A DNA stretch of 6,583 bases from Myxococcales bacterium (GTDB taxonomy: Bacteria > Myxococcota > Polyangia > Fen-1088): the NCBI GenBank assembly GCA_003155465.1, contig PMCR01000464.1:1-6583 (forward strand), written 5' to 3'. The notes under the pieces were generated by a model. It did no database searches, had not been told where the DNA came from, and saw nothing but the letters and a program-made list of their open reading frames with translations. The position numbers were made by a program, and so were the translations under genes. Shown piece after piece: positions 4,101 to 6,583 of the stretch. Within the stretch, counting starts at the first letter, position 1. The number at the start of each line of letters is the position of its first letter.

Positions 4101-6583
4101 CCCGCCCCGCGCGCTTCGCGCGCGCCCTCGCCGGCGGCGCATAGCGAATCCCCAGCCGCACCGGCTGCCTTGAGCCCGACTTCTTCGCACGGAGCAAACC
4201 AGACCATGAGTGAGAGTTCGATTCGCACGTCCGCAGGCCAGCCCGACTACGAAGGGCTGGGAAGATTGTTCGCCCGTTTCCTCGACGAGGGCATGGCCCT
4301 TCACGGCGGACGTCGTGTCGGCCCGCCCGCGCTGCCGGAAGCCCGTCAGGGTTCGATTGTCGTGTCGGGCGCAGCCTTGGGCCTGCCTGGGCAGAACAAA
4401 CACGTCTTCGACGACGGCAATGTGGACCGCATTCTGCGTGGCGACTCCTTCATCGATCCGGTGCCCCAGGTCTTCCGCGCCCGCATGGTGGAGAAGAACG
4501 TGGTCCGCCTGGTCAAGCGCGAGGTCGGCGAGCCCAGCCTGGATCCCATCCGATCGGTGGACGAGGTTATTCGCCTGGCCGGGCGCCGTGGCGCCTTCGA
4601 TATCGTCGAGGAATTCGGGGTTCCGCGTGAGCGGGTGGAGGCCTGGGACATCACGTCTGCGCTGGCGATCGCAGCGGGTATCGAGGCGCTGCGCGACGCG
4701 GGCATTCCTCTCGTGCGTCACTATCGTCGCACCACCACGGGCGGCACCCTGCCCGACCGCTGGCGGCTTCCGGTCGCGATGGCCGACGAGACCGGTGTGA
4801 TCTTCGCCTCGGCCTTCCCGGGCTTCGACAACCTGGTCGACGAGCTCACGCGCTTCTTCTCCCAACGAAGCGGCGGCACCAGCTACGAGTTCGATCGCCG
4901 TTTCCTTTTCCGCATTCTCTCCATGGGTCACGCGCAGTTCGCAGAGCTGCTCGGCATCCGCGGTCCCAACACCCAGGTCAACGCGGCCTGTGCTTCGACC
5001 ACCATGGCGGTGGGCATGGCCGAGGACTGGATCCGGGCCGGCCGCTGTCGCCGCGTCCTGGTCATCGGCGCCGACGACGTCACCTCGGACAATTTGCTGG
5101 AATGGATGGGCGCCGGTTTCTTGGCCTCGGGCGCGGCCACCACCGAAGACGTGCTGGAAAAGGCGGCGCTTCCATTCGATCGCAGGCGCAACGGCATGCT
5201 GCTGGGTATGGGGGCGTGCGGCCTGGTGGTGGAATCGGAAGATTCGCTACGCGAGCGCGGCATGCGCGGACTGTGCGAAGTGCTGGGCAGCGAGTTCGCC
5301 AACAGTGCGTTCCACGGGACGCGCCTGGATGTGGAGCACATTGAGGGCGTGATGGAGCGACTGGTGTCCGGCGTGGAGCGGCGTCACGGCATAGACCGGC
5401 ACGCGATGGCGCGCGAACTGGTCTTCATCTCGCACGAGACCTACACGCCAGCGCGCGGAGGCAGCGCTTCGGCCGAGGTGTTTGCTCTGCGCAAGGCCTT
5501 TGGCGCCAGCGCCAACGATCTGGTCGTTTGCAACACCAAGGGGTTCACCGGCCATCCCATGGGAGTGGGCGTGGAGGACGCGGTGGCGGTCAAGATTCTG
5601 GAAAAGCAGATCGTTCCGCCGGTGCCCAACTACCGCGAGCCAGATCCCGAACTGGGCACGCTGAATTTGTCGAAGGGCGGGCACTATCCGGTGCGCTACG
5701 CCCTGCGCCTGGCCGCTGGCTTCGGGTCGCAGATCGCGATGACCGTGCTTCGTCGCATTGATGGTCTGGAAGAGCGCGTGGCGGATCGAGCTACCTACCA
5801 ACGCTGGCTGTCCGAGATCTCGGGCTACCCGGCGCCAGCCCTGGAAGTCGAGAAGCGCACCCTGCGCATCAAGGACAACGGCACGCCGGCGCGCGAGCCG
5901 GCTCAGTCGACCTGGACCATGGGAACGGGCCCGCGCGCCAGCGTCGATGGGGTGCCGATGCCGGAGATGGCGGGGTCGCGAGCGCCGACTGCGCCGGTGG
6001 TGGCTGCAGCGCGAGTGTCGGCAGCGCCGGTCGTGGCTGCGACTCCGGCGGCTCGGCCGGCGCCTGCGCCGGCGGCCTCGACAGCGGTTTCTTCTCCGGC
6101 GGTCACGACTGCCGCAGCGCCGTCCGGCGGCGACGTGGTCTTGGAGTCGGTGCTCAAACTGGTCAGTGACAAGACCGGCTATCCGCGCGACATGCTGGAC
6201 CCCGACTTGGATCTCGAAGCGGACTTGGGCATCGACACAGTCAAGCAGGCCGAAGTGTTCGCGCTGGTGAGGGAGACATTCAATATTCCGCGGCAGGACA
6301 CGCTAAAGCTGCGTGACTACCCGACGCTCCGGCATGTCATCGGGTTTGTGGAGACGAATCGACCGGATCTTGCGGCCCCGGCAGTTGCGGCTGCGAGCCC
6401 GGCTCCGGTGTCGGCCCCGGCCCTCGGGGATGCCGGGGTGGACCCCGCCCCGCGTGCTTCGCACGCGCCCGTCGCGGCCACGGTAGGTGTCGTGGCGGAG
6501 AGAGTGCTGGGATTGGTGGCGGAGAAGACTGGGTATCCACGCGACATGCTGGAGCTAGACCTGGATCTCGAAGCGGACCTGGG
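1197..6583 (+). CDS. PfaA-like iterative type I polyketide/fatty-acid synthase, KS-AT-KS-ACP-ACP (3' partial)
   Basis: Multidomain cytosolic synthase that should build an acyl chain by repeated decarboxylative condensation of malonyl units. The frame is open for 1,795 codons and runs off the window. Visible order: KS1 (about 11-473; Cys219, His353, His393), KS-AT linker, AT (about 603-930; Gln610, Ser701 in GHSLGE, His806 in HAFHS, the malonyl-type signature), Ala/Pro linker, divergent KS2 (about 1054-1521; Cys1265, His1413, Lys1448, His1453), Ala/Pro linker, ACP1 (about 1646-1721), Ala/Pro linker, ACP2 start (from about 1765). The KS1 N-terminus (VAIIGVGAILPDA, then DRWDQADYYDSDPKAPGKTY) and the KS-AT linker are of the PUFA-synthase kind. 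PfaA itself has KS-MAT-tandem ACPs-KR; the KS inserted between AT and ACPs is a departure from it. ACP1 carries Thr1681 in place of the attachment Ser. No KR, DH or ER is seen; they may follow downstream. The product class (PUFA-like lipid, other fatty acid or polyketide) cannot be settled here. Confidence 0.93.
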   Translation, partial: MSRSTRDPAERAVAIIGVGAILPDALDAKAFWQNVITGRNSISEVTPDRWDQADYYDSDPKAPGKTYSKIGGWVRGVSFEPTKLRIPPTVSAAMDDGQKWALLCASEALRDAGHPDRPLDTESTAVILGNAMGGELHYLTCLRLFMPEYVHAISDTQVFQSLSQADRAAFVAQLRESAGRRFPDTTEDTMPGELTNITSGRVAAVFNLRGPNFTTDAACASSLAALQSAVDGLTDHHYDVAVTGAMDRNMGATTFIKFCKIGALSPDGSRPYDKDANGFIMGEGGAMFVCKRLQDAEEAGDRIYAVVRGVGGSSDGKGKGITAPNPVGQILALRRAWERAGLDPATMTLLEGHGTSTRAGDVAEMETAMKLLSEGSPVKHRIALGSIKSQIGHLKSAAGAAGLLKAVLACHHKILPPSINFNQPNPNVPWDKTPLFVNTKAQPWEKPSFGPRRCGLSAFGFGGTNFHVVVEEYVPGMLPRRQPVVQVPASYMASVPVVTTVRDTRPPMLGNMLALGGADTAAVRTALTQALDAAKAGRTPDRQPPGPDFLAAPARLVIAFEDAADLVKKGETALAGLDQGEPKKWRVLQSKGIHFRRGGAGKVAFLFPGQGSQYVNMLADVPDPIVRETFAEADRVMEPILGQPLTKYVYKNEADPAAMQAAEEALKDTTICQPAMVASDIAIMRLLDKHGVRPDIVMGHSLGEWAAAVGAGMVTFPEALVAVSARARAMASVSIGDKGKMASVAGPTDEIVRRLPEIGGYLTPANINSRKQTVIAGASEAVDRAVDYFNKLGMTAQLIPVSHAFHSKVVAPASDALYRTICEMEIAFPRIPLVGNIDGDLYPTHDMDTIRRRLANQMASSVQFVKGVETCYREGARIFVEVGPKRALMALAESILEDKDDVICFSTNHPKRGGVRSFHDAMCGFYAAGIPRPEDLLAVHAGTQPDPGIATASRVGSPPALRDGQPIPPAPRASRAPSPAAHSESPAAPAALSPTSSHGANQTMSESSIRTSAGQPDYEGLGRLFARFLDEGMALHGGRRVGPPALPEARQGSIVVSGAALGLPGQNKHVFDDGNVDRILRGDSFIDPVPQVFRARMVEKNVVRLVKREVGEPSLDPIRSVDEVIRLAGRRGAFDIVEEFGVPRERVEAWDITSALAIAAGIEALRDAGIPLVRHYRRTTTGGTLPDRWRLPVAMADETGVIFASAFPGFDNLVDELTRFFSQRSGGTSYEFDRRFLFRILSMGHAQFAELLGIRGPNTQVNAACASTTMAVGMAEDWIRAGRCRRVLVIGADDVTSDNLLEWMGAGFLASGAATTEDVLEKAALPFDRRRNGMLLGMGACGLVVESEDSLRERGMRGLCEVLGSEFANSAFHGTRLDVEHIEGVMERLVSGVERRHGIDRHAMARELVFISHETYTPARGGSASAEVFALRKAFGASANDLVVCNTKGFTGHPMGVGVEDAVAVKILEKQIVPPVPNYREPDPELGTLNLSKGGHYPVRYALRLAAGFGSQIAMTVLRRIDGLEERVADRATYQRWLSEISGYPAPALEVEKRTLRIKDNGTPAREPAQSTWTMGTGPRASVDGVPMPEMAGSRAPTAPVVAAARVSAAPVVAATPAARPAPAPAASTAVSSPAVTTAAAPSGGDVVLESVLKLVSDKTGYPRDMLDPDLDLEADLGIDTVKQAEVFALVRETFNIPRQDTLKLRDYPTLRHVIGFVETNRPDLAAPAVAAASPAPVSAPALGDAGVDPAPRASHAPVAATVGVVAERVLGLVAEKTGYPRDMLELDLDLEADL
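1227..2615 (+). other. KS1 domain (ketosynthase, PfaA-type)
   Basis: Residues about 11-473 of the synthase. The active-site Cys219 is in DAACASS (codon 1851-1853), His353 in EGHGTST (2253-2255), and His393 in KSQIGH (2373-2375), with the conserved Lys five residues before it. The domain ends at the glycine-rich FGFGGTNFH. All residues needed for transacylation and decarboxylative condensation are present, so it should be active. Length is usual for a type I KS, with an insertion between the N-terminal part and the Cys (about residues 133-205) of the sort seen in PUFA-synthase KS domains. Confidence 0.93.
3003..3986 (+). other. AT domain (malonyl-CoA acyltransferase type)
   Basis: Residues about 603-930. 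It opens with VAFLFPGQGSQ (oxyanion-side Gln610), has the nucleophile Ser701 in GHSLGE (codon 3297-3299) and the catalytic His806 in HAFHS (3612-3614). HAFH at this position is the classic malonyl signature, versus YASH for methylmalonyl, so a malonyl extender is expected. It would load malonate onto the downstream ACPs of the same chain. Confidence 0.92.
3987..4205 (+). other. Ala/Pro-rich interdomain linker, AT to KS2
   Basis: Residues 931-1003, rich in Ala, Pro and Ser, with no recognised fold. The DNA contains two tight inverted repeats (4108-4124 with a 7-bp stem; 4153-4167 with a 6-bp stem) and is followed by an in-frame ATG at 4206. Just upstream, GGAG at 4191-4194 is spaced 11 bases from that ATG. 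The stretch looks like intergenic DNA that is now translated, which would fit a gene fusion, but this is only an inference. Confidence 0.6.
4108..4124. repeat. Palindromic hairpin unit, copy 1
   Basis: A perfect inverted repeat with 7-bp arms around a TTC loop. It sits within a 27-bp unit (4101-4127) that matches 6444-6470 at 25 of 27 positions. Both copies are read in the same frame and encode PAPRAS(R/H)AP within an Ala/Pro linker. Confidence 0.7.
4356..5759 (+). other. KS2 domain (divergent, FAS-like ketosynthase)
   Basis: Residues about 1054-1521. It begins SIVVSGAALGLPG and ends AAGFGSQIAM. Active-site Cys1265 is in NAACASTT (codon 4989-4991), His1413 in SHETYTPARGG (5433-5435), Lys1448 in NTKG, and His1453 in FTGHPMG (5553-5555). 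The triad is therefore intact, unlike a chain-length factor, which lacks the Cys. HETYT replaces the usual HGTGT. The block PFDRRRNGMLLGMGACGLVVES and the K...TGHPMG motif recall fungal or mycobacterial FAS-type KS domains more than modular PKS ones; this is by eye, not from an alignment. Its role next to KS1 is unknown. It could act at different chain lengths or as a priming or branching KS. Confidence 0.85.
5760..6131 (+). other. Ala/Pro/Val-rich linker, KS2 to ACP1
   Basis: Residues about 1522-1645. The first part is a possible short helical tail of KS2 (up to about 1565). The rest, from about 5940, is low-complexity Ala/Pro/Val/Ser sequence that probably serves as a flexible tether for the carrier domains. 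It contains a small direct repeat: 5991-6007 and 6024-6040 agree at 16 of 17 bases and both encode APVVA. No other feature is seen in this stretch. Confidence 0.75.
6132..6359 (+). other. ACP1 domain with Thr at the phosphopantetheine site
   Basis: Residues about 1646-1721. A typical four-helix carrier-domain pattern: VLESVLKLVSDKTGYP, then LDLEADLGIDTVKQAEVF, then LKLRDYPTLRHVIGFV. The position of the phosphopantetheine Ser (GxDS in carrier proteins) is Thr1681, codon ACA 6237-6239. The rest of the recognition helix is intact, including the Asp before it. The domain may be modified on Thr, be inactive, or have a scaffold role; the sequence cannot tell which. Confidence 0.88.
6177..6229 (+). 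repeat. ACP tandem repeat, copy 1
   Basis: This segment of ACP1 matches 6531-6583 of ACP2 at 46 of 53 bases, 354 bp (118 codons) apart and in the same frame. It shows a tandem duplication of carrier domains. Tandem ACPs are a hallmark of PUFA synthases. Confidence 0.8.
6360..6488 (+). other. Ala/Pro-rich linker between ACP1 and ACP2
   Basis: Residues about 1722-1764, an Ala/Pro/Val tether between the two carrier domains. It contains the second copy of the palindromic unit (6444-6470). Confidence 0.75.
6451..6467. repeat. Palindromic hairpin unit, copy 2
   Basis: Inverted repeat cgcgtgc-ttc-gcacgcg with perfect 7-bp arms. It differs from copy 1 (4108-4124) at two bases that pair with each other (C-G in copy 1, T-A here), so the stem is kept. 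The surrounding 27-bp unit, 6444-6470, is in the same reading frame as copy 1. Confidence 0.7.
6489..6583 (+). other. ACP2 domain (3' partial)
   Basis: Residues from about 1765 to the window end. VAERVLGLVAEKTGYPRDMLELDLDLEADLG repeats the ACP1 pattern, but the sequence stops just before the phosphopantetheine-site residue. Whether this copy has Ser or Thr there cannot be seen. At least one further carrier domain is therefore certain, and more may follow. Confidence 0.85.
6531..6583 (+). repeat. ACP tandem repeat, copy 2 (partial)
   Basis: Partner of 6177-6229, with 7 mismatches in 53 bases. Several are silent (GGC/GGG, CCG/CCA, TTG/CTG twice), consistent with selection on the protein after duplication. 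Confidence 0.8.

Follow-up and report, generated by a model that had tools for sequence, protein, structure and literature searches.

The DNA analyzed here, referred to as the window, is a stretch of 6,583 nucleotides from a Myxococcales bacterium (contig PMCR01000464.1 of assembly GCA_003155465.1, forward strand), which carries the 5' part of a gene coding for a Type R-like secondary-lipid synthase. The first acyl carrier protein domain of this synthase (ACP1) is an intact ACP with a threonine at the position that accepts 4'-phosphopantetheine (Ppant). The architecture is a known one, but no report of its acceptor residue, nor of threonine-type carriers of this kind, was recognized in the open-access literature, which is a weak negative confined to that literature. 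On the basis of the comparative analysis reported below, we consider it probable that ACP1 functions as an acyl carrier in an iterative lipid synthase of Type R and bears Ppant on its threonine. With somewhat less assurance, we also favor the wider idea of a natural thiotemplate class that would use phosphopantetheinyl-threonine and be loaded by a co-evolved Sfp-type phosphopantetheinyl transferase (PPTase), fused to the synthase in some lineages. To our knowledge, the serine of carrier domains is generally treated as obligatory.

The Acceptor Site of ACP1

Bases 6228-6248 of the window (GGCATCGACACAGTCAAGCAG) encode GIDTVKQ, and the codon at 6237-6239 is ACA, that is, a threonine at residue 1681 of the open reading frame (ORF). 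The bases thus agree with the initial annotation of this DNA, which was made from the letters alone and had also stated that ACP2 is cut ahead of the same site, as is indeed the case (Table 1). Its further statement that ACP1 is not a degraded domain is borne out by a profile, a model and a structural search. PF00550 matches residues 1651-1717 with 25.8 bits (cut-off 20.8), and the AlphaFold2 model of ACP1 has a mean pLDDT (predicted local distance difference test) of 90.0 and shows a helix spanning segment residues 38-52, of which the threonine is the first. When this model was used as a Foldseek query, only five matches were obtained at E <= 0.001, and the top two are ACPs, with TM scores of 0.86 and 0.87 and root-mean-square deviations of 1.5 and 1.3, respectively, the latter being 6lvu_A. 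Moreover, by a profile of 68 family ACPs the threonine corresponds to the serine of ACPs with solved structures, one of which, 7pdi, shows an X for this residue; the structure-profile alignments comprised these 68 ACP sequences (from 78 locus stretches plus the window) and 50 of 53 PPTases. Of the features of a PF00550 carrier domain, ACP1 therefore has the fold and the profile match, with threonine in place of the serine acceptor.

Conservation of Threonine among the Homologues

A search with the ACP1 region matched 3209 proteins, and in the best 120 of these 3209 all the 631 ACP domains (four to eight per protein) carry threonine, while a DS-type carrier pattern gave no match in the same 120 proteins. 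The window and 79 loci among the matches listed (designated L, as genomes are designated G and proteins P) yielded 239 domain hits, six of which are cut; all the 233 readable ones have threonine, encoded by ACG (115), ACC (101), ACA (13) and ACT (4). According to their record titles, these loci belong to Myxococcales, Deltaproteobacteria, Acidobacteria, Chloroflexi, Elusimicrobia, Bacteroidetes, Gemmatimonadetes, Frankiaceae and others. The close relatives L001 and L003, sharing about 86-89% nucleotide identity with the window, have threonine in all the ACP motifs found (two and three, respectively). The motif DLGxDTVKQAE is near-invariant in the ACPs of the family, and the complete proteins read harbor from two to eight ACPs, apart from one member with a single one.

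Since these searches used words or patterns containing the motif, the survey was repeated with the second ketosynthase-like domain (KS2) alone (window 4317-5860), which is free of ACP sequence. Strong matches to KS2 (197 bits or more, other genes reaching 127 bits or less) were found in 32 of 112 genomes in the phylum of the L001 genome, in six of 121 in that of L007 and in nine of 119 in that of L012, the centre genomes being counted. The 30 loci from the first phylum gave 77 threonines, one serine and two cut domains, and the 15 strong loci from the other two gave 46 threonines and one cut domain, so that threonine occurs in 123 of the 124 domains read. Rows with S and P (E 11 and 3.7) were dropped from this survey as noise; when the ORFs of the loci were searched with the ACP profile, a row reading A, from an ORF on the opposite strand of L027, was likewise dropped. 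The lone serine belongs to a mixed protein (L140:2-10099), which has one serine ACP (codon AGC) before KS2 and two threonine ACPs after it; L141 and L143 likewise have an early ACP, but with threonine. No residue other than threonine or serine occupies the site in any real ACP read and, serine being the only substitution found, the hydroxyl group is kept in every domain read. The sets overlap, as proteins and loci may share genes, and their counts are therefore not summed; L110, L185 and L220 are the genomes of L001, L007 and L012, and one gene underlies both L120 and L140.

A different picture emerges from the other carriers of the same genomes. PF00550 gave 122 matches in 12 host genomes; 30 of them, mostly the best-scoring ones, had loci, and 29 could be aligned. 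Serine is present in all the 27 aligned carriers belonging to other proteins, whereas the two Type R ones both have threonine; the thirtieth (L163) has serine. Ser-type AcpP-like proteins occur in the same genomes as the threonine ACPs. Related synthases, of which five regions were read among the 15 matches listed (plasmid records), have serine in Methylosinus (1/1), Beijerinckia (2/2), Persicobacter (6/6) and Streptomyces (1/1), a row at residue 1112 of L271 and the small ORFs of L274 being left out of these counts. The fifth region, L271 from the actinomycete Nonomuraea gerenzanensis, encodes a 2584-aa Type R-like protein in which one ACP was detected, of the threonine type (LEADLGVDTVKQAE), and downstream of this synthase lie a carboxylase gene and then a PPTase domain. 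The L271 record (NZ_LT559118.1) is an 11.85 Mb replicon filed as a plasmid, which is probably a chromosome.

In a tree of the first ketosynthase domain (KS1) built without ACP sequence, a single change between threonine and serine is needed over the 46 labelled rows out of 49. These rows were 20 ORFs of the loci and 12 proteins taken at random, plus all those from L14x and L27x; the three unlabelled ones, which have no ACP on the ORF, are L007 and, from L274 and L275, the second KS ORF of each. Threonine at the acceptor site is not a matter of chance, since the search across genomes that the initial annotation had called for found the residue near-invariant in the homologues read. Both the homologue sets and the KS1 tree lend good support to the annotation's suggestion of a distinct carrier subfamily.

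The Synthase and its Phosphopantetheinyl Transferases

The synthase looks active, as judged from the conservation of its catalytic residues. Among 80 aligned proteins, 79 or 80 keep each residue of the KS1 triad, and the serine and histidine of the acyltransferase (AT) domain as well as the Cys, His and His of KS2 are each present in all 80. A typical chain-length factor (CLF) is not expected to keep an intact Cys-His-His; hence, KS2 may be a second working ketosynthase. From the established chemistry of fatty acid and polyketide synthases, an active synthase of this kind would need a loaded carrier.

A candidate loading enzyme is encoded close by. In L001 a 240-aa ORF starts 9 bp past the synthase stop codon and matches PF01648 (E 9.4e-17); its model has a pLDDT of 95, and this protein, which lies outside the window, shows by eye the motifs of Type R PPTases, P1a, x(G/D)xP, as SGVP and P1b', hShxH, as LSISH. 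Of the loci, 64 extend 3.8 kb or more past the last ACP, and 57 of these have a PPTase downstream according to a profile built from the loci. No more than 5 kb separate it from the last ACP in 44 of them, where it mostly follows the synthase immediately; the other 13 have it further off, behind about 5.5 kb. In L013, the one scanned of these 13, the intervening gene encodes a multidomain acetyl-CoA carboxylase; such single-chain enzymes, of about 1830-1900 aa and with biotin carboxylase, biotin carrier, ACC_central and carboxyltransferase domains, follow the synthase in the three loci listed in Table 1. Nine Myxococcota ORFs, all longer than 3000 aa, were picked from 32 genomes, and each of the nine carries a PPTase domain as a C-terminal fusion to the synthase (PF01648 was confirmed in the two scanned).

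The alignment of 50 linked PPTases revealed eight invariant residues (G126, D128, E130, E148, W166, K169, E170 and K174). With their PF01648 match and the GxDxE and WxxKE signatures, these proteins have the characters of Sfp-type enzymes. Their alignment with Bacillus subtilis Sfp (1qr0, 4mrt) extends to about 165 of the 197 profile positions, with the catalytic signature kept, although the sequences are distant. In a tree of 76 distinct PPTase stretches (out of 82, matches covering fewer than 90 profile positions being left out), two starred groups are set off from most of the linked or fused enzymes; they consist mainly of unlinked ones from the same genomes, and one of the two also holds a Chloroflexi PPTase located 8 kb from its synthase. 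At least one PPTase match was found in each of the 21 host genomes examined (of the 79 loci), and more than one in 18 of them.

According to the mechanism that we propose, the co-encoded Sfp-type PPTase, lying near the synthase gene or fused C-terminally, would move Ppant from coenzyme A to the hydroxyl group of the ACP threonine. The KS-AT-KS2-KR-DH domains would then assemble the chain, fatty or polyketide, on the Thr-loaded ACPs. What we infer here is the action of the PPTase on threonine, the holo-form as the working form and the nature of the product. Threonine may insulate the carrier from the other PPTases and the ACP hydrolases of the host; it may also render the phosphodiester less prone to beta-elimination. 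The dedicated transferase that the initial annotation had listed among its options appears likely, in that genetic linkage and fusion suggest it, while its action on threonine is the inferred part.

Comparison with Known Systems

Type R synthases were described by Shulse and Allen (2011) in five genomes as KS-MAT-CLF-ACP(3-6)-KR with a PPTase gene downstream and an unknown product (PMC3098273). According to that report they occur sporadically in Acidobacteria, Elusimicrobia and Chloroflexi; in Koribacter, synthase and PPTase are separated by part of an acetyl-CoA carboxylase. The main text contains neither "threonine" nor "serine". The window shares with them the array on one polypeptide (KS1, AT, KS2, ACP1 and the start of ACP2), and the spread of the homologues over phyla agrees with the published one. 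The differences are a dehydratase (DH) domain behind the ketoreductase (KR) domain in the relatives found here, the fusion of some members to the PPTase, two to eight ACPs (a single one in one member) rather than three to six, and a KS2 that keeps Cys-His-His intact. Of the three options of the initial annotation (dedicated transferase, structural ACP, distinct subfamily), the distinct subfamily is well supported and the dedicated transferase is suggested, while a purely structural ACP fits poorly. The family was already known by its architecture, which could not be seen from the letters alone.

The polyunsaturated fatty acid (PUFA) synthase PfaA follows a similar KS-AT-tandem ACP-KR logic, and the window ORF, which is partial, scores 708.1 bits with TIGR02813, below the curated cut-off of 1010.1. 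However, the PUFA-like synthase of Persicobacter has GIDSIKRVE, with serine in each of its six ACPs, and for ChtnD serine has been reported in all ACPs (PMC13291983). A mention of threonine in PMC11744666 turned out to concern the residue after the serine and not the acceptor.

The closest parallel to the residue itself is the S36T form of Escherichia coli AcpP, which has threonine at the same position of the ACP fold but is an engineered mutant, in contrast to the natural threonine of the Type R ACPs. Three reports describe it as unmodifiable and non-functional and use it as an unmodifiable control (PMC3340395), as losing an ACP interaction (PMC13343975) and as not acting as a suppressor in the way wild-type ACP does (PMC9456370). 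These failures make a natural threonine family surprising and provide a reason for a dedicated enzyme.

Alternative Explanations

A sequencing error, a degraded domain or a lone variant has nothing in its favor beyond the window being a single sequence. The homologues have already refuted this idea, whose probability is negligible: threonine is found in hundreds of sequences with four different codons, including L001 and L003 at the identity given above, and the outcome that the initial annotation had named as fatal to its claim, homologues all having serine, is contradicted by the homologue counts. It is also very improbable that Ppant is attached elsewhere, for example to a linker serine or to Thr17 of KTGYP, even though this residue is likewise invariant in the 68-sequence alignment. 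Indeed, Thr17 stands beside a normal serine in Ser-type relatives (EKTGYP...GIDSIKR in Persicobacter), and thus it is not a replacement site; no serine column is conserved in the ACP, and it is the acceptor-site threonine that starts the modelled helix II.

The main rival to Ppant on threonine is that the threonine ACPs are never phosphopantetheinylated and serve as structural spacers or for docking, the chain being carried by a Ser-type ACP in trans, such as AcpP. The presence of AcpP-like proteins in the same genomes and the failure of the S36T mutant to be modified (PMC3340395) fit this structural option, which the initial annotation had also raised. Nevertheless, it agrees poorly with a linked or fused PPTase, with the near-invariance of DLGxDTVKQAE and with the finding of serine alone as a natural replacement. 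When all ORFs of at least 60 aa in L001-L079 and L140-L148 were searched with the ACP profile (domain E <= 1), which distant ACPs may escape, a separate Ser-type ACP did not emerge. Furthermore, a decoy role for the threonine domains would leave the Nonomuraea synthase, with its single detected ACP, without any carrier on the polypeptide. For these reasons we rate a purely structural role as unlikely. A little less likely still is that the general PPTases of the host modify the threonine, the linked enzyme being an ordinary one and the residue having no special meaning. The PPTase matches in all the host genomes examined, usually more than one, speak for this, as does the Frankiaceae genome discussed below with its AcpS-type match; against it stand the serine of all the other aligned carriers (27/27 in 12 genomes) and, again, the S36T mutant of PMC3340395. 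In the genome of L037 (G013, a chromosome record of unstated completeness) the one PF01648 match groups with the Type R enzymes. This single PPTase was found (L089) in a genome holding both a Ser-type AcpP and threonine ACPs, and thus one enzyme may serve both residues there.

Several observations weigh against the loading of threonine by a dedicated enzyme. The fate of S36T (PMC3340395) implies that threonine is a poor acceptor, at least for the E. coli enzymes. PPTase linkage is common also in Ser-type lipid synthases, according to PMC3098273, and two of the Ser-type loci analyzed here are linked to a PPTase as well; linkage therefore supports loading, but by itself is no proof of threonine specificity. 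In the PPTase tree the linked rows do not form one clade (seven changes by label), in a topology of weak inner support with 35 of 73 inner branches open, and in the KS1 tree the branches parting threonine from serine are unstarred (84 and 91), with long branches flagged. Moreover, no PPTase is in reach in seven of the 64 testable loci: L012 and L025 stop inside the carboxylase gene, L050 has that gene but its last 1.4 kb contain no PPTase, the genome of L037 encodes a PPTase of the Type R kind at another place, and the neighbors are different ones in L026, L029 and L057. The genome of L026 (G010), a metagenome-assembled genome of 3.0 Mb and unknown completeness, has an AcpS-type protein as its only PF01648 match.

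Gene Context and Other Features

The coordinates of the features are collected in Table 1. By Pfam, the window ORF (1197-6581) contains a KS, an AT, a second KS-like and one PP-binding domain. KR and DH matches at the end of the protein come from the full-length relatives P0004 and P0030, the two scanned, while the tail of the L001 synthase was read by eye.

Table 1. Features of the window and of the downstream carboxylase genes in related loci
Feature	Position	Strand	Evidence or remark
Acyl-CoA dehydrogenase gene, 3' part	1..1089	+	PF00441 E 8.4e-40; upstream neighbor of the synthase
Type R-like secondary-lipid synthase, 5' part	1197..6581	+	1795 aa, open at 3' end; KS-AT-KS2-ACP1-ACP2...
KS1 domain	1227..2621	+	Pfam; Cys219-His353-His393
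Acyltransferase domain	3009..3899	+	PF00698 E 2.7e-40; GHSLG Ser701, His806
KS2, second ketosynthase-like domain (CLF in the Type R description)	4317..5860	+	Cys1265-His1413-His1453 all present
ACP1 domain	6126..6371	+	PF00550, AlphaFold2, Foldseek
Thr1681 codon ACA, phosphopantetheine-acceptor position	6237..6239	+	Sequence, profile alignment, model
ACP2 start	6492..6581	+	Cut before acceptor position, ends ...LEADL
Multidomain acetyl-CoA carboxylase after the synthase	L013:13878-19568, L050:13336-18858, L271:20631-26108		Acidobacteria and Actinomycetota loci

The pair formed by the acyl-CoA dehydrogenase gene and the synthase is found also in L001 (3423-5081), and the dehydrogenase could be a reductase or desaturase of the pathway. 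At the other end of the synthase, the usual place of the PPTase is taken in L029 by an ankyrin-repeat ORF (L029:5911-7197), while an AMP-binding (acyl-activating) enzyme lies directly behind the synthase in L026, a Frankiaceae genome (L026:12787-14565).

Conclusions

If the proposed reading is true, threonine phosphopantetheinylation would be a natural reaction in a multi-phylum family of synthases. Engineering would gain PPTase/carrier pairs that are possibly orthogonal, and there would be a way to reach the unknown lipids of Type R. The family is a large one, given the number of proteins matching the ACP1 region (3209, with threonine read in the best 120 of them), and the carrier chemistry that it probably uses is one that laboratories have treated as non-functional.

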